From Lachnospiraceae bacterium (GTDB lineage: Bacteria; Bacillota; Clostridia; Lachnospirales; Lachnospiraceae), in contig JAQXZD010000115.1 in the NCBI GenBank assembly GCA_029227035.1, forward strand, positions 1 to 47,436: 47,436 nt of DNA. Reading direction: 5' to 3'. Of the stretch, positions 5,816 through 46,967 are shown in pieces (the first letter of the stretch is position 1; every line of letters begins with the position of its first letter). Under the pieces are notes generated by a model. It did not search any database. It saw only the letters and a list, made by a program, of their open reading frames with translations, and was not told where the DNA came from. The position numbers and the translations under genes were made by a program.

Positions 5816-5863
5816 CTCTTTTCTTTTTTATTGTCTGTTCAGAACTCTTCCCAACATTTGCAC

Positions 5864-6298
5864 TTATATCACATAATCTTCAGTCTTCTCTTGCTGCCAG
5901 TCCAGCAAATCCTGTAATGTCGTGTTATCCACAACATTTCTGACCGCTTCATCTATCTTCTTCCATAAAATCACGGTAACACAGGCATCCTGCCGCTCAC
6001 AGTTGATTTCATCGTCCTCGATGCAGGTTACCGGTGCCAATGAACCTTCCGTCAAACGAAGAATCATACCAACCGTATAATCTTTCGGCTCCTTGCTGAG
6101 CAGATAACCTCCCTGTGCTCCCCGCACGCTTTTGACGTAACCGGCGCGGTTCAAAACGGAGATAATCTGCTCCAGATATTTGTCTGAGATTCCCTGCCTG
6201 TTAGCAATATCCTTCAAACTGATCGGAGATCCTGTATAATTTGATGCAAGATCAAGCATCATCCTGAGCGCATACCGTCCCTTTGTTGAAATCTTCAT
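5864..6298 (-). CDS. iscR: Rrf2-family Fe-S regulator IscR
   Basis: This 144-residue winged-helix repressor is the first gene of the isc operon. The N-terminal MKISTKGRYALR and the recognition segment YLEQIISVLNRAGYV with SVRGAQGGY are classic for the Rrf2 family. Three cysteines, C92, C100 and C106, are placed like the cluster ligands of IscR. It therefore probably senses Fe-S status and represses its own operon. The cysteine regulator CymR belongs to the same family but normally lacks these cysteines. The operon position supports IscR. A shared motif also suggests that it acts on cysK. Confidence 0.88.
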   Translation of the reverse strand: MKISTKGRYALRMMLDLASNYTGSPISLKDIANRQGISDKYLEQIISVLNRAGYVKSVRGAQGGYLLSKEPKDYTVGMILRLTEGSLAPVTCIEDDEINCERQDACVTVILWKKIDEAVRNVVDNTTLQDLLDWQQEKTEDYVI

Positions 6299-6327
6299 AT
6301 CCGCCTCTCATTTTCACATTCATTTTT

Positions 6328-6374
6328 AATTCCTACTAAAATACTATAATATATACTTAGTATGATTTTGTCAA
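6328..6374 (-). promoter_or_regulatory. isc operon promoter and operator candidate
   Basis: TTGACA (6369-6374) and TATTAT (6346-6351) are separated by 17 bp. AATTCCTACTAA at 6328-6339 is, read on the minus strand, the same 12-mer as at cysK. A perfect palindrome ATACTTAGTAT (6353-6363) lies between the promoter boxes and may be a second contact site. Confidence 0.7.
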
Positions 6375-6390
6375 CACATTTTTATGCATA

Positions 6391-6590
6391 ACTCGAATTA
6401 TTCACAGCGGCAAAGTGAAATCTATAATTCAGGCGTCAAGCTTGCTTGTAAGCCGAATTCTTGATTTCACTTGGTGGGTGAATAGAATTCACCCACCACA
6501 CAGCCTCAGACATAAGCTGCAAAGCAGCGGCAGATGCGCATCGCGCAACTGGTCTGTGGCCTGTGATAGCTATAAACAATTCAAAATAAC
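6391..6590 (+). repeat. Structured inverted-repeat element B, related to element A
   Basis: The outer pairing is imperfect (GAATTATT at 6395 with AACAATTC at 6575; TCACAG at 6402 with CTGTGA at 6561). Inside, a stem 6416-6430/6455-6469 encloses CAAGC-TT-GCTTG-TAAG at 6437-6452. A perfect 11-bp hairpin, GGTGGGTGAAT with ATTCACCCACC, lies at 6473-6497. A branched end follows, with GCTGC-GCAGC and TGCGC-GCGCA hairpins. Order and core bases match element A, with compensating base-pair changes. With the iscR promoter, it fills most of the gene-free interval 6299-6678. The exact boundaries are uncertain. Confidence 0.6.
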
Positions 6591-6678
6591 TTAGGATTCA
6601 TTTAGTTAGAATGGATTTCTTTTATGACTTATGTTAAAATAACAGACAGCGATTACTGAAAAGAAAAGAGGATGAATT

Positions 6679-6942
6679 ATGGCAAAAGGAGCTCTTGCAA
6701 AAAATTATTGGACATTACTGATTCTGATACTTGCCGGTGTCGTACTGGGCGGATTTATCGGACAGTTAACCGCGGACATTCCCGCTTTAAGCTGGCTGAA
6801 CTACGGACGGACTTTTGGCCTGTCTTCCCCGTTGGTACTGGATCTTGGAATTCTGGTTCTCACCTTTGGTCTTACCATCAAAATTACCATTGCGGGAATC
6901 ATCGGAATTGTTCTCGCCATTATTATTTACCGGCTTATATAA
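6679..6942 (+). CDS. DUF4321 small membrane protein
   Basis: This 87-residue protein has two hydrophobic segments (about residues 10-32 and 54-86) around a short polar loop. The ending LDLGILVLTFGLTIKI, followed by a final membrane helix, matches the DUF4321 family, which is common in Clostridia and has no known function. The start has AAGAGGATGAATT before ATG. It is a single-gene unit on the plus strand, preceded by element B and a possible -10 TAAAAT at 6635-6640, and closed by a strong terminator. Confidence 0.8.
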   Translation: MAKGALAKNYWTLLILILAGVVLGGFIGQLTADIPALSWLNYGRTFGLSSPLVLDLGILVLTFGLTIKITIAGIIGIVLAIIIYRLI

Positions 6943-6983
6943 AAATTCCCGGAAACTGTTTTTACCAGTTTCCGGGAATTTTT
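6941..6983. terminator. Bidirectional intrinsic terminator
   Basis: A perfect 18-bp stem (6941-6958 with 6966-6983) with A and T tails lies between the convergent DUF4321 and lacI-type genes. It probably ends both transcripts. Confidence 0.9.
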
Positions 6984-7991
6984 TTACCCTGTAATCCGAA
7001 TCACACTCTCTGTATTTTTTAATTCAAATGGAATCATCTGGTGCAACGCCTGTTGCCCAAGATTAATCATTCCGACTAAAATTTCCATGCTTCGTTTTGC
7101 AATTTCCTCATATTCCTGACAGATTGTTACAATCTTAGGATTATAGTAATTCGCAAGAAGCGTGCCGTCGTATCCCACCATCGAGATATCTTCCGGAACC
7201 CGCAGACCTGCATCCAAAATCGCACGTATCGCACCAACTGCCATCACATCACTCATTGCAAACACCGCTGTAAGCGAACGTTCCTGCTCCAAAAGACGGT
7301 TCATTGCCTGATAGGCACTGTCACAGGAGAATCTCGCGGTTACATAACTCTGCTCATCAAACGCAATTCCATGCTTCTGAAAGCTTCGCAGACACCCCTC
7401 CTTACGTCTCCTGCTCGGTGATGATAACTGTACGTCTCCTCCGACAATCCCGATATTCCGATGCCCGTTATCATACAGATAATCAATTGCCTGCTCCGCT
7501 GCCGCAACATCATCTGTGGATACGGATGACAAATTCTCAAATCCAAGTTCGTCTCCACGGTCTGTGACAAGCACGCACGGCACATCCACATATTGGAAAT
7601 CCTGTCTGAAATTCTGCTCATTACTTCCCAGGAACAAAATTCCCAGCGGTCTGTGCTCTCTGCAAACCCGCAGTGCCTCCTGTACTTCGTTTGCATCTTC
7701 ATCCAGATAATGAACACGCAACGAGTATTTGGATTCGTCCACAATTCCCTGTGCTGCTTCAATCACATTGGAAAAAAGCATGTTCGATGTACCCTTGACA
7801 ATGATCAGAATACTCTTACTCACCGTCTGCTTGAGACACTTCGCATTATGGTTTGGCACAAAATGATTTGCCTGCACAACCTCCATAATTTTTTGTCTTG
7901 CTTCTTCACTAACATCTCTTCGTCCGTTGAGCACTCTTGAAACTGTACTGACCGAATATCCGGCCTCATTCGCAATATCAATAATTGTCAT
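6984..7991 (-). CDS. LacI-family sugar-responsive repressor
   Basis: This 335-residue regulator has the helix-turn-helix TIIDIANEAGYSVSTVSRVL at the N-terminus. The hinge-helix region follows near residues 45-58, then a periplasmic-binding-protein-like effector domain with the typical VGYDGT stretch near residue 273. It is the last gene of the sugar transporter operon, 38 bases after the second permease, so it is probably co-transcribed with its targets. The likely binding sites are the palindromes at 11312-11361, giving negative autoregulation relieved by sugar. The effector cannot be named. Confidence 0.9.
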   Translation of the reverse strand: MTIIDIANEAGYSVSTVSRVLNGRRDVSEEARQKIMEVVQANHFVPNHNAKCLKQTVSKSILIIVKGTSNMLFSNVIEAAQGIVDESKYSLRVHYLDEDANEVQEALRVCREHRPLGILFLGSNEQNFRQDFQYVDVPCVLVTDRGDELGFENLSSVSTDDVAAAEQAIDYLYDNGHRNIGIVGGDVQLSSPSRRRKEGCLRSFQKHGIAFDEQSYVTARFSCDSAYQAMNRLLEQERSLTAVFAMSDVMAVGAIRAILDAGLRVPEDISMVGYDGTLLANYYNPKIVTICQEYEEIAKRSMEILVGMINLGQQALHQMIPFELKNTESVIRITG

Positions 7992-36866: not shown

Positions 36867-37799
36867 TTACTGGTTTTCCTTCGCAACTTCAACAATTGAC
36901 TTGGACAATCCTGCAATTCCCTGTATATCGGACGGTACGATAATCTTTGTTGCCTTACCGTCTGCTGCCTTTGCAAAGGCCTCCAGACTCTTAAGCTGCA
37001 GTACCGCATTATCCGGAGCAGCCTCCTTGAGCATTCTCAGACCGTCTGCGTTGGCCTGCTGAATCTTAAGGATTGCAGCAGCCTGACCTTCTGCTTCCTT
37101 GACCGTTGCCTCCCGCTTTGCTTCTGCGCGAAGAATTGCGGCCTGCTTCTCTGCCTCTGCGTCAAGAATCGCAGACTCCTTATTTCCTTCTGCCACAAGA
37201 ATCGTGGACTTCTTCTCACCTTCCGCACGAAGAATTGCCTCTCTTCGCTCACGCTCTGCTTTCATCTGCTTCTCCATCGCATCCTGAATTGCTTTCGGCG
37301 GAATGATGTTCTTAAGCTCCACGCGGTTTACCTTAATCCCCCATGGATCCGTTGCCACATCCAGTGTAGAACGCATCTTGGTGTTAATCGTCTCACGGGA
37401 TGTCAGAGTCTCATCCAGCTCCAGATCTCCGATAATGTTACGAAGTGTTGTTGCCGTCAGATTCTCAATTGCCATAATCGGATTCTCAACACCGTATGCA
37501 TACAGCTTGGAATCCGTAATCTGGAAATACACAACCGTATCAATCTGCATGGTTACATTATCCTTTGTAATAACCGGCTGCGGCGGAAAATCCACCACCT
37601 GTTCCTTTAACAGTACATCCTTGGCAATCCGGTCAATAAACGGCACTTTAAAGTGCAGACCCACCGACCATGTGGTCAGATATCCTCCCAATCGTTCCAC
37701 AACTTTGGCATGTGCCTGCGGTACAATCTTGATACAACTGACAAGCAACCACAGAATAATCACTGCCACCACAATTAACGCAATAGCTCCTCCCGGCAT
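36867..37799 (-). CDS. SPFH-domain membrane protein (stomatin/QmcA-like)
   Basis: This is a 310-residue protein with an N-terminal membrane helix (about 5-24), an SPFH/Band 7 domain (about 25-190; PQAHAKVVERLGGYL, then DVLLKEQVVDFPPQPVIT) and a long coiled coil rich in Ala, Glu and Lys. Such proteins form large ring or cage oligomers and scaffold membrane microdomains. It directly follows an NfeD gene, the classical partner, with a 14-base gap. AAAGGAGGATTGGAAA precedes the ATG. Confidence 0.92.
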   Translation of the reverse strand: MPGGAIALIVVAVIILWLLVSCIKIVPQAHAKVVERLGGYLTTWSVGLHFKVPFIDRIAKDVLLKEQVVDFPPQPVITKDNVTMQIDTVVYFQITDSKLYAYGVENPIMAIENLTATTLRNIIGDLELDETLTSRETINTKMRSTLDVATDPWGIKVNRVELKNIIPPKAIQDAMEKQMKAERERREAILRAEGEKKSTILVAEGNKESAILDAEAEKQAAILRAEAKREATVKEAEGQAAAILKIQQANADGLRMLKEAAPDNAVLQLKSLEAFAKAADGKATKIIVPSDIQGIAGLSKSIVEVAKENQ

Positions 37800-37813
37800 T
37801 TTCCAATCCTCCT

Positions 37814-38269
37814 TTAATTTTTTTCAACTATAAGTTTGACACCCTTGATTTCAACAACCTTTGCCAGTTCGTCTGCCTCAATAGTCTCATTATCATTACG
37901 GGACCGGACTGTCCACTCCTGTCCGTGGACAACCGCCTTCCCGGTCTGATCCATGTTGCTGACGCGCTCCGTGATGCGTATGGTCTCACCAATAAGGCTG
38001 TCCGCATTCGTCTGCTGCGTTCTCGAATTGATATATTTTCCCGCCCATGTTCTTGTTGCTGCCAAAAGAACCACAGACACCAGAACAAACAATACAAACT
38101 GCAGAACCGGCGGTGCACCAAAAGCTGCCGCAAGCAATGCCGCCAGAGCTCCTGCCGCAAACCAGATGGACACCAGTCCTACCGTTGCCAGCTCTCCGAC
38201 TATAAATACAATTAGCAAGACAATCCATAATAGAATAAACGGATCTATTGCAGAAAATACATCACCCAT
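37814..38269 (-). CDS. NfeD-family membrane protein
   Basis: This is a short-form NfeD of 151 residues: three membrane helices within the first 75 residues, then a C-terminal OB-fold-like domain (LIGETIRITERVS, VHGQEWTVRS, VVEIKGVKLIV). It lacks the N-terminal ClpP-like protease of long NfeD. It is encoded with its SPFH partner, and the two together probably organise membrane domains or quality control. Confidence 0.9.
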   Translation of the reverse strand: MGDVFSAIDPFILLWIVLLIVFIVGELATVGLVSIWFAAGALAALLAAAFGAPPVLQFVLFVLVSVVLLAATRTWAGKYINSRTQQTNADSLIGETIRITERVSNMDQTGKAVVHGQEWTVRSRNDNETIEADELAKVVEIKGVKLIVEKN

Positions 38270-41135: not shown

Positions 41136-41151
41136 CTTAACATTCCCTTAA
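41136..41151 (-). promoter_or_regulatory. Direct TTAAG repeats upstream of the DUF975 gene
   Basis: On the minus strand, TTAAG occurs twice with an 11-bp period (41147-41151 and 41136-41140), a spacing used by OmpR/PhoB-type regulators. The first overlaps the stop codon of the preceding gene. Binding by the response regulator at 39564 is only a suggestion. Confidence 0.3.
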
Positions 41152-42083
41152 AAAGAATCCAAGGCCTTTCTTATTTTCCTGGTCTCCAGTTTTGTTCCAT
41201 AAAAATCTTTTGTGGAACATCCGGCCCGTCCGCCTCCGGCGCAGGCGCAAGCACAGGCACACGCGCAGGCGCAGTGTCCGCCGGAATGACCGCGATAGCG
41301 CCCCGCCGTCGAATGATAAACCGCACCCATACCCTTATGTTTATGATAATAGTCCTTCTTCTCTATCCTTTTACGCAACACCATAAACAGGATACTCACC
41401 AGAATCGGAATACCCACCAGCGCCACCAGAAGCGGATTCTTCAGATATCCCGCGGCAGAAACCTTCATACTGTCTTCCGATGAAAAAGCACTCTCCGGAT
41501 ATGTAATCTCCACTGTCTTACGATTTCCTGCCGGCAGCGAAGTCTCCCATACATAACAGCCGTCCTCTTCCGCATATCCCGCCGATGCCTCCGTGATTCC
41601 GGAACTGTCCCATCGGATTTTTTGGGAATCCACATCGATTTCATCAAACCAGCCCGGCGTATAAGTATATACTCTTGCCGCACCCTCCTGCCTGTACATC
41701 TGATGCTGCCGGAATCGGAAATCAAACTTCACCACTTCTCCGGCATAATACTCCCTGTTAAAATCAATCCGGATATACTCTCCGTCATGATACCAGAATT
41801 GAATCTCATCTATATTGCTGCTCAGTGCCTCAATATCTTCTATGTACTCATTCGGCACACCGATTTTTACCCATTCCAGCGGTCCATCAGACGAACTGTC
41901 CAACACCTTCCATGTAATATGGTAAGTCATGTCCAGCGATCCGTCCTCGTAAGGCTTCACATCTATGGTATAATCAAGAATCTCATCCAGATAACCGGTC
42001 TGGGCAGAGACCGCTTCACTGCTGCAGCCAATGATCACCACCAGAAAACATGCATACATAAAATGCAGAAATTTCTTTAACAC
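41148..42083 (-). CDS. DUF2207-like membrane protein with a Cys-Ala repeat tail, candidate rSAM substrate
   Basis: This is a 311-residue protein. A signal with possible lipobox IIGC (Cys20) leads to an extracytoplasmic beta-rich domain (about 30-205; DGSLDMTYHITWKV, GEYIRIDFNREYYAGEVV) resembling DUF2207. A membrane helix follows at about 217-236, then a basic stretch placing the tail in the cytoplasm. The tail holds SGGH, then six Cys-Ala dipeptides (Cys 271, 273, 275, 277, 279, 281), GGGRAG, Cys289 and STKDFYG. DUF2207 proteins usually have a plain glycine/serine-rich tail here. Start codon GTG overlaps the stop of the radical SAM gene (GTGTTAA), so the two are translationally coupled. The tail is the likely target of that enzyme. 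Confidence 0.8.
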   Translation of the reverse strand: MLKKFLHFMYACFLVVIIGCSSEAVSAQTGYLDEILDYTIDVKPYEDGSLDMTYHITWKVLDSSSDGPLEWVKIGVPNEYIEDIEALSSNIDEIQFWYHDGEYIRIDFNREYYAGEVVKFDFRFRQHQMYRQEGAARVYTYTPGWFDEIDVDSQKIRWDSSGITEASAGYAEEDGCYVWETSLPAGNRKTVEITYPESAFSSEDSMKVSAAGYLKNPLLVALVGIPILVSILFMVLRKRIEKKDYYHKHKGMGAVYHSTAGRYRGHSGGHCACACACACACAGGGRAGCSTKDFYGTKLETRKIRKALDSF

Positions 42084-43450
42084 TTCGCTTCACCTGCCTT
42101 TCCGCGAAGCGGGCATACCTGCTTCATCTGTGCCGAAAATGCCCTGTGCTTTTTACATACCGGATAGTTCCATATCTTTTTCCATGAGTCCTTCTGCATA
42201 TCTCCCAGAGTCTCCTCCGAAAGCCAGCTTTGACAAGGAATTACTTTGCCGTCCGGTGTAACCGCCATATTGCTTAGGCAGGCACCACAGGACGGTACAT
42301 CCAGCCCCAGTGCTTTCAGCTTCTCTTCCGCAATCCAGCCGGGCGAAGTAAAGTTTATCTCCATGCCGTTGGCAAAACAGTATTCCGAAGCTTCCCTGAC
42401 AATCCCGTAGATGACATCCGACGAAAGCTGCGTTACAACGGAATCCTCTTTTACCGCATTTCCGGTAACAATCAGCCCGGAACAGGTGACATACCTTACC
42501 CCCAGCTCCTTCAAAAACCGTAAAGTCTGAACATAATCCTGATTCAGACTGCAAAGCGGCGTATTGATACTGAGATTCAGCCCTGCCGCCAGCGCATTTT
42601 TGATGCCTGCAAGCGTCTTTTCGTAATTCTCTGCCCCCACCAGCCTGTTATGCACTTCCTGATTTGCAGAATAGAACGTCACCTGGACACTGTCCAGTTC
42701 TGCCTCCACCAGTTTTTTACAAAGCTCCGGTGTCAGCAACACTCCGTTGGTATTCAGCCGCGTAATAAACCAGCGCGCATGTGCCACCAGCTCACACAAA
42801 TCCTTCCGCAAAGTCGGTTCTCCACCGGTAAAGGTAATCTGTGGGATTTCCGCTTTCCTGCAATTGTCGATAATCCGTTTCCACTCCTCGGTTGACAACT
42901 CCGGTGTCTCCGCCAGGGCCTGCCCCGCCGCATAGCAGTGCAGACATTTCTGATTGCAATGCCATTGTCCGTTCTGTGCCATGGCAGATACCATGAGATC
43001 CATCCGGTGCGGCGCTGTCATATGCGGTGCATATTCGCCGATACTGAGAAGTCCTATCTCCTGCCGGGGAACCTCCCCGTGAATCACCGCCTCAAAAGTT
43101 TCAATTATGGTACCCAGATCTTCCTTTAACTCCTCATCCGAAACGGAAGGATAAACCTTGCGCACATTATGAAAGACGTCCTGCAGCACAAACTCCAGAT
43201 CTTTCTCGCTCATCTCCCCCGGTCCGAAAGCATTGACACGGTTCACAAACTCGGTCAAAAGGATTGCCCACGATTCATTGAGCGGCAGTATCTCCTGCCC
43301 GTTGAGAATCACAATTGCCGGCGCCGTCCGAAACCAATGGAATTTCGGCGGAATCATGTGAATCCGGATTACGCCGGGACCTTGGGGATCCCAGGTGGTA
43401 TGTATCACATTTTTCCAATTTTTCAGTTCGTATCTCTTTTCCTCTAACAT
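42077..43450 (-). CDS. Radical SAM/SPASM maturase with N-terminal PqqD-like region
   Basis: This is a 457-residue enzyme of the PqqE/peptide-maturase type. The SAM cluster motif is C165-C169-C172 (WHCNQKCLHCY), followed by FTGGEPTLR. The C-terminal SPASM domain has cysteines 388, 391, 406, 432, 446 and 457, sufficient for auxiliary Fe-S clusters. Residues about 40-125 (APAIVILNGQEILPLNES, then acidic helices) look like a PqqD-type peptide recognition domain. AAGGAGCAGAGGG precedes the chosen ATG. Together these features predict modification of a ribosomally made peptide or protein tail. The neighbour with the Cys-Ala tract is the obvious substrate. The chemistry, perhaps thioether formation, is not shown by sequence. 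Confidence 0.9.
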   Translation of the reverse strand: MLEEKRYELKNWKNVIHTTWDPQGPGVIRIHMIPPKFHWFRTAPAIVILNGQEILPLNESWAILLTEFVNRVNAFGPGEMSEKDLEFVLQDVFHNVRKVYPSVSDEELKEDLGTIIETFEAVIHGEVPRQEIGLLSIGEYAPHMTAPHRMDLMVSAMAQNGQWHCNQKCLHCYAAGQALAETPELSTEEWKRIIDNCRKAEIPQITFTGGEPTLRKDLCELVAHARWFITRLNTNGVLLTPELCKKLVEAELDSVQVTFYSANQEVHNRLVGAENYEKTLAGIKNALAAGLNLSINTPLCSLNQDYVQTLRFLKELGVRYVTCSGLIVTGNAVKEDSVVTQLSSDVIYGIVREASEYCFANGMEINFTSPGWIAEEKLKALGLDVPSCGACLSNMAVTPDGKVIPCQSWLSEETLGDMQKDSWKKIWNYPVCKKHRAFSAQMKQVCPLRGKAGEAKC

Positions 43451-43461
43451 CCCTCTGCTCC

Positions 43462-44337
43462 TTACAGTGATAAGATAATTGCACAATTACACAGAACCGT
43501 AAACACCGCCATCACACCAAACCACAGATAGCCGCTTTTGTCCCAACCCAGATGTCCGTGGGGATAATCTGCATAAATTTCATGCAAAGCCTTCGTTGTC
43601 CTATGGGAGAATACAGCGCTTTGAAACAGTGTTTTCAATGATACGCAATCCCAGATTCCAAAAATGGCACATAAGACAATCGCATATTCTAAGGTATTCA
43701 CCCCCGGCAGGCAGAAAAGCCAAAAGCTTAACACTGCCAAAAACAGTGAAAGCACACAGCGTTTCCTGCTCCTTTCATAAAAAAATCGCCTGTCCAGAAG
43801 ATCCAGTGCCTTTTTCTCATAACGCGGAAGCTTTGCACGGATGTGACTCTGCAGCATCCCGTAACATTCCTCCACATGTTTCTGTGCCTCTGAATCTCCA
43901 ATCTCATAATGGAACACCATCTTGTTTGGTCCCTGCCCAATCTGTATTCCGGTATCCTCAAACGACACCCTCCCTGACGAAACGGCGGCATCCATCTCCG
44001 AATAGTAAACAGGACTTTCCTTCCCCCATAAGCCCACGCGCAACGCCTGCGTCGGCTGCAGATAAATCCCAAGCTTCTTGCGCCCTTTTAAGACAAGCGG
44101 CTCGATCACGAGAACCAAAACAAACAAAACCCCAAAAACTCCACAGACTACGTGCATCCAGAAATACTCAAAATGTGTCTCGATATCTGCACAGAAGGTC
44201 AGGAAAGACGGATAAAACGTTGCAAAAATCCATCCCATACGGGATTGTTTCTTCTTTTCAAAATAATAGTCCGAATACTTCGGCAAAAATCCGGGTGTCT
44301 TTCGTATATCCGGCTCCTTGGATTTCTTTTTACTCAT
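43462..44337 (-). CDS. Unrecognised membrane protein in the radical SAM operon
   Basis: This is a 291-residue protein I cannot assign. It has a basic N-terminus (MSKKKSKEPDIRKTPGFLPK), two membrane helices around residues 35-90, a soluble middle part of about 100 residues with beta pattern (VGLWGKESPVYYSEMDAAV, VSFEDTGIQIGQG), then helices near 190-240 and at the C-terminus. No cysteine-rich region or protease motif is seen. GGAAGGAGACGTT precedes ATG 44337. It is 11 bases upstream of the radical SAM gene, so the three genes form one operon. A role in presenting, stabilising or exporting the modified membrane protein is possible but unproven. Confidence 0.7.
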   Translation of the reverse strand: MSKKKSKEPDIRKTPGFLPKYSDYYFEKKKQSRMGWIFATFYPSFLTFCADIETHFEYFWMHVVCGVFGVLFVLVLVIEPLVLKGRKKLGIYLQPTQALRVGLWGKESPVYYSEMDAAVSSGRVSFEDTGIQIGQGPNKMVFHYEIGDSEAQKHVEECYGMLQSHIRAKLPRYEKKALDLLDRRFFYERSRKRCVLSLFLAVLSFWLFCLPGVNTLEYAIVLCAIFGIWDCVSLKTLFQSAVFSHRTTKALHEIYADYPHGHLGWDKSGYLWFGVMAVFTVLCNCAIILSL

Positions 44338-46159: not shown

Positions 46160-46720
46160 CTAACAGACTAAATTAATAATTCTTTCTTCATCCCATAAAT
46201 CATTCGGAAAAATAGTTATATCTTCTTCCTTATGCTTTCTCAAAATTCTCACAGCCTCTTCCCTTGTATTATCATATATATGCAATATATCGCACAAATC
46301 TATTAATTCTTTTACATTACCTAATGATTTATAATATCTGTCCCGGATCTTATCTTTAGGCACATCATGTCCTCCACCGGATACTCTGGCATCTACTCGT
46401 AAAATATTAACTTCCGGATCAATTGTCAAAACAAAGATACACTTAATAAAATAGCCTTCCTCTTTCGCCTTTCGAATGACTCTCATTGGGTATTCTGAAG
46501 ATAGCACTGTTTCGAATGTAAAATCTAACTTGGATTCTATCGCTTCATATCTTTTCTTTTCAACAATCTCTGCCGCCTGCTTATTATCAATCCCCATGGC
46601 TTTGACAATATCATCCGCATTCGTATACTCCCCAACTGTTCCCAAATAATCTGTTATCGTACTCTTTCCCGAACCATTCGGTCCAGCAAATACAAGTAAC
46701 ATTGGTTTTTTAGTTTCCAT
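46160..46720 (-). CDS. Zeta-type toxin kinase
   Basis: This is a 186-residue P-loop protein: AGPNGSGKST near the N-terminus, LDFTFETVLSS and RVSGGGHDVPKDKIRDRY further on, a pattern of the zeta-toxin/UDP-N-acetylglucosamine kinase family. Such toxins phosphorylate cell-wall precursors. It overlaps the upstream antitoxin-like gene by 11 bases. METKKPML is preferred as start because GGAGCTCGAAAAG precedes it; an ATG five codons earlier is possible. The coding sequence is visibly more AT-rich than tyrS. The pair is bounded by direct repeats, suggesting acquisition. Confidence 0.82.
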   Translation of the reverse strand: METKKPMLLVFAGPNGSGKSTITDYLGTVGEYTNADDIVKAMGIDNKQAAEIVEKKRYEAIESKLDFTFETVLSSEYPMRVIRKAKEEGYFIKCIFVLTIDPEVNILRVDARVSGGGHDVPKDKIRDRYYKSLGNVKELIDLCDILHIYDNTREEAVRILRKHKEEDITIFPNDLWDEERIINLVC

Positions 46721-46967
46721 CTTTTCGAGCTCCATTCTCTAATTCCATATACGCTTTATGAGTTTTCATATCATATCTGGCAATCGGTTTTTTGCAAACC
46801 TTAGCTTTTTCCACTGCTGCTTTTACCGCAAATGAAGCCCTCTCATCCATCTCCGCATCCTCTTTGGAAATAATGTTCTGTTCAACCAATTTTCCTTTAT
46901 CCGCTAATGTTACCACTCTAATTGATTTTCCATTTACCTTTCTAATTGATTCATTATAATGAGCCAA
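46710..46967 (-). CDS. Antitoxin-like protein paired with zeta toxin
   Basis: This is an 85-residue charged protein directly upstream of and overlapping the zeta-type gene. The conserved-looking C-terminal part KKPIARYDMKTHKAYMELEN resembles small proteins commonly paired with this toxin type. It lacks a recognised DNA-binding domain. The likely start codon is TTG at 46967, preceded by GCGAGGTGACTGAAA. Its role as antidote is inferred from position and size. Confidence 0.7.
   Translation of the reverse strand: MAHYNESIRKVNGKSIRVVTLADKGKLVEQNIISKEDAEMDERASFAVKAAVEKAKVCKKPIARYDMKTHKAYMELENGARKDGN

Follow-up and report, generated by a model that had tools for sequence, protein, structure and literature searches.

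Why should a radical S-adenosylmethionine (SAM) enzyme be encoded directly beside a membrane protein whose C-terminal end carries a run of alternating cysteines and alanines? This arrangement is found on the minus strand of contig JAQXZD010000115.1 of a Lachnospiraceae bacterium (assembly GCA_029227035.1), of which positions 1 to 47,436, the 47,436-nucleotide stretch that was analyzed, are here called the window. An initial annotation of this DNA had pointed out six Cys-Ala units followed by GGGRAGC next to a SPASM radical SAM gene, and these can indeed be read directly on that strand. We propose, with a probability of roughly 0.7, that the two genes are a maturase-substrate pair in which a membrane-anchored Cys-Ala tail is cross-linked by the radical SAM enzyme. 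The enzyme carries a recognition element (RRE) of the kind found in maturases of ribosomally synthesized and post-translationally modified peptides (RiPPs). The features concerned, with transmembrane abbreviated as TM, are as follows.

41148..42083, minus strand: tail protein gene, 311 aa, GTG start at 42083; signal/anchor, DUF2207-like beta-sandwich ectodomain, one TM segment, Cys-Ala tail
41217..41273, minus strand: (Cys-Ala)6 and GGGRAGC, residues 271-289, the presumed substrate
41364..41453, minus strand: predicted TM segment (residues 211-240) with RKRIEKK at its end, ahead of the tail
41469..41996, minus strand: ectodomain, residues 30-205, a beta sandwich like those of ribophorin-I/OST1 and the M1-aminopeptidase N-domain
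42077..43450, minus strand: radical SAM/SPASM maturase gene with RRE, 457 aa from the ATG at 43450
43076..43411, minus strand: RRE/PqqD-like N-terminal domain of the maturase, about residues 14-125
42935..42958, minus strand: CxxxCxxC motif (C165, C169, C172) of the SAM-binding 4Fe-4S cluster, in 23/23 aligned rows
42113..42289, minus strand: SPASM/twitch region (C388, C406, C446), in 23/23 aligned rows
42077..42083, minus strand: GTGTTAA, where the stop of the radical SAM gene overlaps the start of the tail gene
43462..44337, minus strand: upstream membrane protein gene, four predicted TM segments; accessory in a few relatives, not core

Does the pairing hold outside this genome? In a class sample of 393 genomes, the window's own included, a profile of the tail protein gave 11 matches, nine of them with the tail (G000, G171, G227, G258, G264, G314, G332, G337 and G356) and two weak ones (G064 and G429) without it. 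A profile of the enzyme, which contains no tail, was used at a threshold of E<=1e-60 and gave 23 genomes in two separate groups: eight near full-length matches (E<=2.1e-180), all within the nine tail genomes, and 15 partial ones (E at least 3.7e-68) that cover only positions from 165 on. The enzyme of the ninth tail genome, G337, is cut by a contig end, and tail and enzyme are found in the identical nine genomes. (The weak tail-protein profile matches in G064, G429 and G019 were not counted; neither tail nor enzyme was found in the 12-15 kb examined.) In G227, contig C122 carries the enzyme together with the beginning of a tail gene, and a tail is found on C115; in G258 the tail gene leaves its contig within a Gly-rich stretch and a tail is found at the end of another contig. 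Two damaged copies were seen in this sample: an in-frame TAA in the radical SAM gene of G258 (L061, about 5960-7345), and in G332 a transposase-bearing insertion (L060, 8528-10267) that has naturally disrupted the pair by splitting the tail gene, the neighboring enzyme gene being intact.

The same partnership is found in archaea. Among 115 genomes of the archaeal phylum of G831, the enzyme was found in seven at the same threshold, and the tail lies directly before it in all seven; a DNA pattern for the tail found five of these genomes and missed two, whose tails read SGGG. Loss of the tail from orthologues that keep the enzyme, which the initial annotation had named among the findings that would speak against it, was not seen: nine of nine class genomes and seven of seven archaeal genomes are paired. 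This co-occurrence supports its proposal that an RRE-SPASM maturase acts on a membrane protein's Cys-Ala tail, and the tail is very probably the enzyme's substrate, its modification being presumed. The tail DNA pattern alone gave seven matches in 398 genomes of the phylum, the window included, and the enzyme is adjacent at all six other loci, with 38-40% identity to the nearest query. The phylum of a Gottesmanbacteria genome (249 genomes) has the tail in that genome alone, in two places: the enzyme lies beside the first, and the second is on another contig, the start of its gene probably lying beside the first. A reversed control pattern was found in 0/398, 0/115 and 0/249 genomes. All 15 loci with a tail-protein relative in a contig search carry the tail and an adjacent enzyme, some truncated by contig ends, although these loci are no independent test, the tail having been one of the six search words. 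A mirror-tree comparison of the enzyme with the body of the tail protein gave r 0.90 (22 loci, 231 distances) and is given little weight, since shared phylogeny explains much of it. The pair is sporadic, being found in 2 of 36 genomes in the window's genus, the window's included.

Which other genes belong to the system? Neighborhoods were compared at 30 loci, the window included, some of them too short to tell. The tail family is present at all 30 and the enzyme, on the same strand, at 28; the two loci without it are contig ends (a truncated match in L014, and in L058 an enzyme on another contig). In most loci the enzyme gene comes first and the tail gene second; the order is reversed in L017, L018, L052, L056 and the other five archaeal genomes, and L056 has one enzyme and two tail genes. 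The two genes stay partners in either order, which speaks for a direct functional pairing. Besides the enzyme, no family, protease or exporter included, occurs in more than five of the 30 loci, where single neighbors were not all annotated. The next most common neighbor is LemA (PF04011, scanned in L047), found in five related loci (L047-L051). The TPM domain is encoded by a separate gene in L047 and is fused behind the tail in L049 and, by sequence, also in L048 and L050. In this Bacillota group (L047-L051, P0157-P0170), the tail is followed by a TPM domain or fused ahead of it, with a LemA gene next, and the Cys-Ala tail can therefore sit within a longer protein.

The window itself had been read as a three-gene operon with an overlap that implied fixed stoichiometry. 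Three minus-strand genes do lie close together, but relatives of the upstream membrane gene stand beside only two of the other 29 loci (L053 and L055), some of the 29 being too short to tell, and a three-gene system was rejected; this gene is lineage-specific and outside the conserved two-gene core. Its best start is the ATG at 44337, with an AAGGAG ribosome site, and its stop is at 43462. The radical SAM gene likewise has its best start at an ATG (43450) with an AAGGAG ribosome site, a listed TTG at 43486 being less likely, and its stop at 42077. It shares a genuine 7-base overlap with the tail gene, and from this GTGTTAA sequence it is suggested that their translation may be coupled; stoichiometry does not follow from it. 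Promoter-like sites (4 versus 4.1 expected from shuffled sequence) and terminator-like sites (7 versus 3.3 expected) were not used as evidence. Further away, adjacent Band_7/SPFH (PF01145) and NfeD (PF01957) genes are found at 36867-38269, about 3 kb downstream of the pair. A conserved SPFH neighbor was rejected: an SPFH-like gene, recognized by reading, follows the pair in L017 and Band_7/NfeD genes lie near that of the window, with no recurrence across loci. At 46160-46967, a zeta-toxin-family protein (PF06414) and a small upstream gene resemble a toxin-antitoxin pair.

What kind of enzyme is this? The window enzyme matches PF04055 above cut-off (6e-25) and PF13186 (SPASM) at 4.3e-9 (37 bits versus a cut-off of 21.5); all 23 members of the family match PF04055, and 23/23 match PF13186 at E<=0.01. 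The PqqD-like N-terminus of the initial annotation is not visible in a Pfam scan of the window enzyme, but it is borne out by PF05402 (PqqD), which is above cut-off in the archaeal relative L017 (1/23 members at E<=0.01), and by the predicted model of the window enzyme, which has a beta-beta-beta-alpha-alpha-alpha N-terminus. This model is nearest to the RiPP maturases SkfB and SuiB, with alignments that begin at residues 28 and 16, respectively; EpeE ranked well under these, its alignment beginning at residue 140 at the earliest, beyond the RRE. None of the curated NCBIfam maturase families was above cut-off in the five members scanned, among the best 25 of 72, 74, 71, 67 and 46 matching families. 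Of the models listed, only the generic radical SAM and SPASM ones reach cut-off.

The tail protein is most strongly conserved at its end. In the window, the tail reads HCACACACACACAGGGRAGCSTKDFYGTKL, with the six Cys-Ala units at residues 271-282. Across 41 aligned proteins, the commonest residue averages 0.95 in the core of the tail (residues 275-295), compared with 0.59 in the ectodomain, 0.39 in the linker and 0.26 in the TM region; the tail core is much more conserved than the remainder of the protein. The middle residue of CXC is alanine in 476/477 cases in Clostridia, 181/205 in archaea and 74/77 in the TPM-linked group. The tail is present, with small variations, in 120 of 120 listed homologues among 3,871 matches, which is no independent test, because the homologue search favors tail words. 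Thirty archaeal proteins (P0121-P0150) have 9 or 10 tail cysteines each, as in CVCACVSCACACACVSCACACA(G/S)GGGF at the extreme C-terminus, and in the 24 more distant of these thirty the identity of the body to the query is 38-50%. Among the 36 matches of the archaeal search, the tail is also found in P0154, the tail region of P0151 looks frame-shifted, and P0152, P0153, P0155 and P0156, which look like partial or different proteins, have no tail. Complete tail proteins are 273 to 691 aa long with a predicted TM segment, and so differ from the short precursors of classical RiPPs. Their assignment as DUF2207-like is tentative, less so for the family than for the window: PF09972 is matched at E<=0.1 by 19 of the 41 proteins, the best at 5.8e-5, but the window protein reaches only E 0.076 (13.7 bits versus a cut-off of 24.4), which is below cut-off.

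How would such a pair work? The membrane protein would insert such that the beta-sandwich domain faces outward and the C-terminal Cys-Ala tail lies in the cytoplasm, a topology that we infer. The product of the adjacent gene, a cytoplasmic RRE-radical-SAM-SPASM enzyme, would hold the tail region with its RRE, and its radical SAM cluster would generate a 5'-deoxyadenosyl radical. An auxiliary cluster would help to bond cysteine sulfur to a carbon of the tail, the acceptor most likely being alanine and the products sactionine-type thioethers. A floppy Cys-Ala array would thereby become a rigid cross-linked tail, still anchored on the protein. Alanine is suggested as acceptor because it is near-strict between the cysteines and because ruminococcin C1 contains a Cys5-Ala12 sactionine (PMC8172795); alanine at the acceptor position is also tolerated by RumMC2 (PMC8188230). 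For a Cys thioether as the product, the chances are about even. The finished tail presumably stays on its protein, since no further family such as a protease recurs beyond five loci. What it would do there is more tentative: it may serve an envelope-stress-type membrane protein structurally or in a redox/metal function. In Streptococcus mutans, a DUF2207 protein helps the cell to tolerate low pH and peroxide (PMC10457818); on that basis, a role in envelope stress or redox is plausible, no more.

Several observations pull the other way. The Clostridial enzymes have fewer SPASM cysteines than the archaeal ones: with regard to the full seven-Cys SPASM set, three further cysteine columns (492, 495 and 503) are filled in only 5/23 rows, those of archaeal and some Bacillota members (L017, L047, L048, L051 and L052), and the window enzyme is not among them. 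A difference in the auxiliary clusters, and perhaps in the reaction catalyzed, would follow, and to judge from these residues the clusters seem to have diverged within a single enzyme family. A hydropathy scan marks the Cys-rich tail itself as TM-like in L017, L047 and L049, so that a cytoplasmic tail is less certain in these. The tail DNA pattern was found in four viral contigs (L089, L090, L091 and L092), and in L091 no enzyme was found in the 15 kb record, although a fragment there ends in (Cys-Ala)3-GGGR. This Gly-rich fragment (5856-6152, ending CACACAGGGR) may be a short stray tail, or may match by chance. A phage origin was rejected, as the matches in L089, L090 and L092 look like reading frames that arose by chance and the enzyme is missing from the L091 record, and so was a mobile or plasmid system, with no plasmid match in 72,556 records. 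Finally, the enzyme might act on something recruited by the tail protein, which would explain the pairing, and metal binding by CxC runs would likewise conserve the cysteines.

The last two points correspond to rival explanations. The tail could be an unmodified, metallothionein-like metal-binding tail, the enzyme modifying another molecule or just a flanking residue. Its CxC/CxxC spacing is metallothionein-like, and many members have a His-rich stretch ahead of the tail; however, metal binding does not need a near-strict alanine between cysteines, no alternative substrate family recurs across loci, and the pairing with a maturase in 16 of 16 genomes would be left unexplained, which makes this unlikely. 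That the tail is a docking scaffold keeping the enzyme at the membrane, with a third molecule as the real substrate, is quite unlikely: genomic pairing alone does not distinguish substrate from scaffold, but no third family exceeds five of the 30 loci, and a high cysteine content is odd for a dock and typical for radical SAM targets. It is a possibility to be reckoned with that the tail is modified by another radical chemistry, such as D-residue epimerization of Ala or Cys (giving, for example, an alternating D/L strand), Cbeta thioethers or other oxidation; the low rank of EpeE, with its alignment outside the RRE (from residue 140 or later), and the dominance of cysteine in the tail speak against it. 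Could the repeat instead be a Gly/Ser-rich low-complexity tail of DUF2207/TPM type turned into Cys-Ala by DNA slippage? Gly-rich stretches do precede the tail in several members, but the third codon positions of the tail vary synonymously across 29 copies, indicating selection on the protein rather than on a DNA repeat, and the tail is nearly identical between archaea and bacteria. Together with the empty counts for the control pattern, this synonymous variation rules out a chance or slippage repeat, which is given almost no probability.

If the tail is cross-linked by its neighboring enzyme, what are its relatives? The combination of an RRE-SPASM maturase and a Cys-rich target next to it is of a known kind, represented by SkfB, SuiB and CteB (sactisynthases and a streptide cyclase). 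Their targets are short leader peptides that are later cut and usually exported (in part from PMC8172795), whereas here a TM protein with a folded ectodomain would be modified at its C-terminal tail, and no family of proteases or exporters was seen to recur at the 30 loci compared. As is proposed for the present system, QhpD places radical SAM thioethers in a protein subunit, QhpC, rather than in a short precursor (PMC8172795). QhpC differs in being a soluble dehydrogenase subunit with sulfur-to-methylene links and no repeat tail. DUF2207/TPM-domain membrane proteins likewise have a signal, an ectodomain, a TM segment and a low-complexity end (TPM is fused in L049 and separate in L047). The ACGX system (TIGR04340) also has a radical SAM/SPASM enzyme, and its name comes from the Cys-containing repeat that is its target; the archaeal enzyme scores 66.7 against that model, far below the cut-off of 400.

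Of published systems, TIGR04222 membrane proteins beside MNIO enzymes come closest (PMC12452194). There too, an integral membrane protein has an unstructured, Cys-studded C-terminal tail and an adjacent RiPP-type enzyme, but the MNIO enzyme is unrelated, the system is mostly found in Actinomycetota, and the tail is predicted to be periplasmic, on the opposite side. Its association is loose, a third of TIGR04222-bearing genomes being without MNIO genes (PMC12452194), and none of seven tail proteins matches the TIGR04222 hidden Markov model (scans at E<=1 and E<=0.01). The claim that no described family has this architecture has to be narrowed by this analogue, although its enzyme is unrelated. 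A literature search found no paper combining DUF2207 with radical SAM, and nothing on this system was among the matches listed in a search that covered few subscription papers and bioRxiv preprints. An uncleaved membrane-anchored tail as target, across bacteria and archaea, is undescribed in the literature searched and in the Pfam and NCBIfam scans.

What would the finding mean? The whole system consists of two genes only. It is conceivable that they build a cytoplasmic prosthetic tail by radical SAM chemistry, a Cys-Ala thioether ladder serving as a redox/metal center wired to an extracytoplasmic sensor domain; as such, the tail might be the permanent, uncleaved and membrane-anchored counterpart of a sactipeptide, in a family that crosses domains. 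If the tail is modified, RiPP-type radical chemistry extends beyond small secreted peptides to the maturation of fixed cytoplasmic tails on membrane proteins, both bacterial and archaeal. Many uncharacterized proteins (up to 3,871 matches, with the tail checked in the 120 listed) would then gain a testable function. Taken with TIGR04222 and its MNIO enzymes, it would point to convergence of two unrelated classes of enzyme on the Cys-studded tails of membrane proteins.

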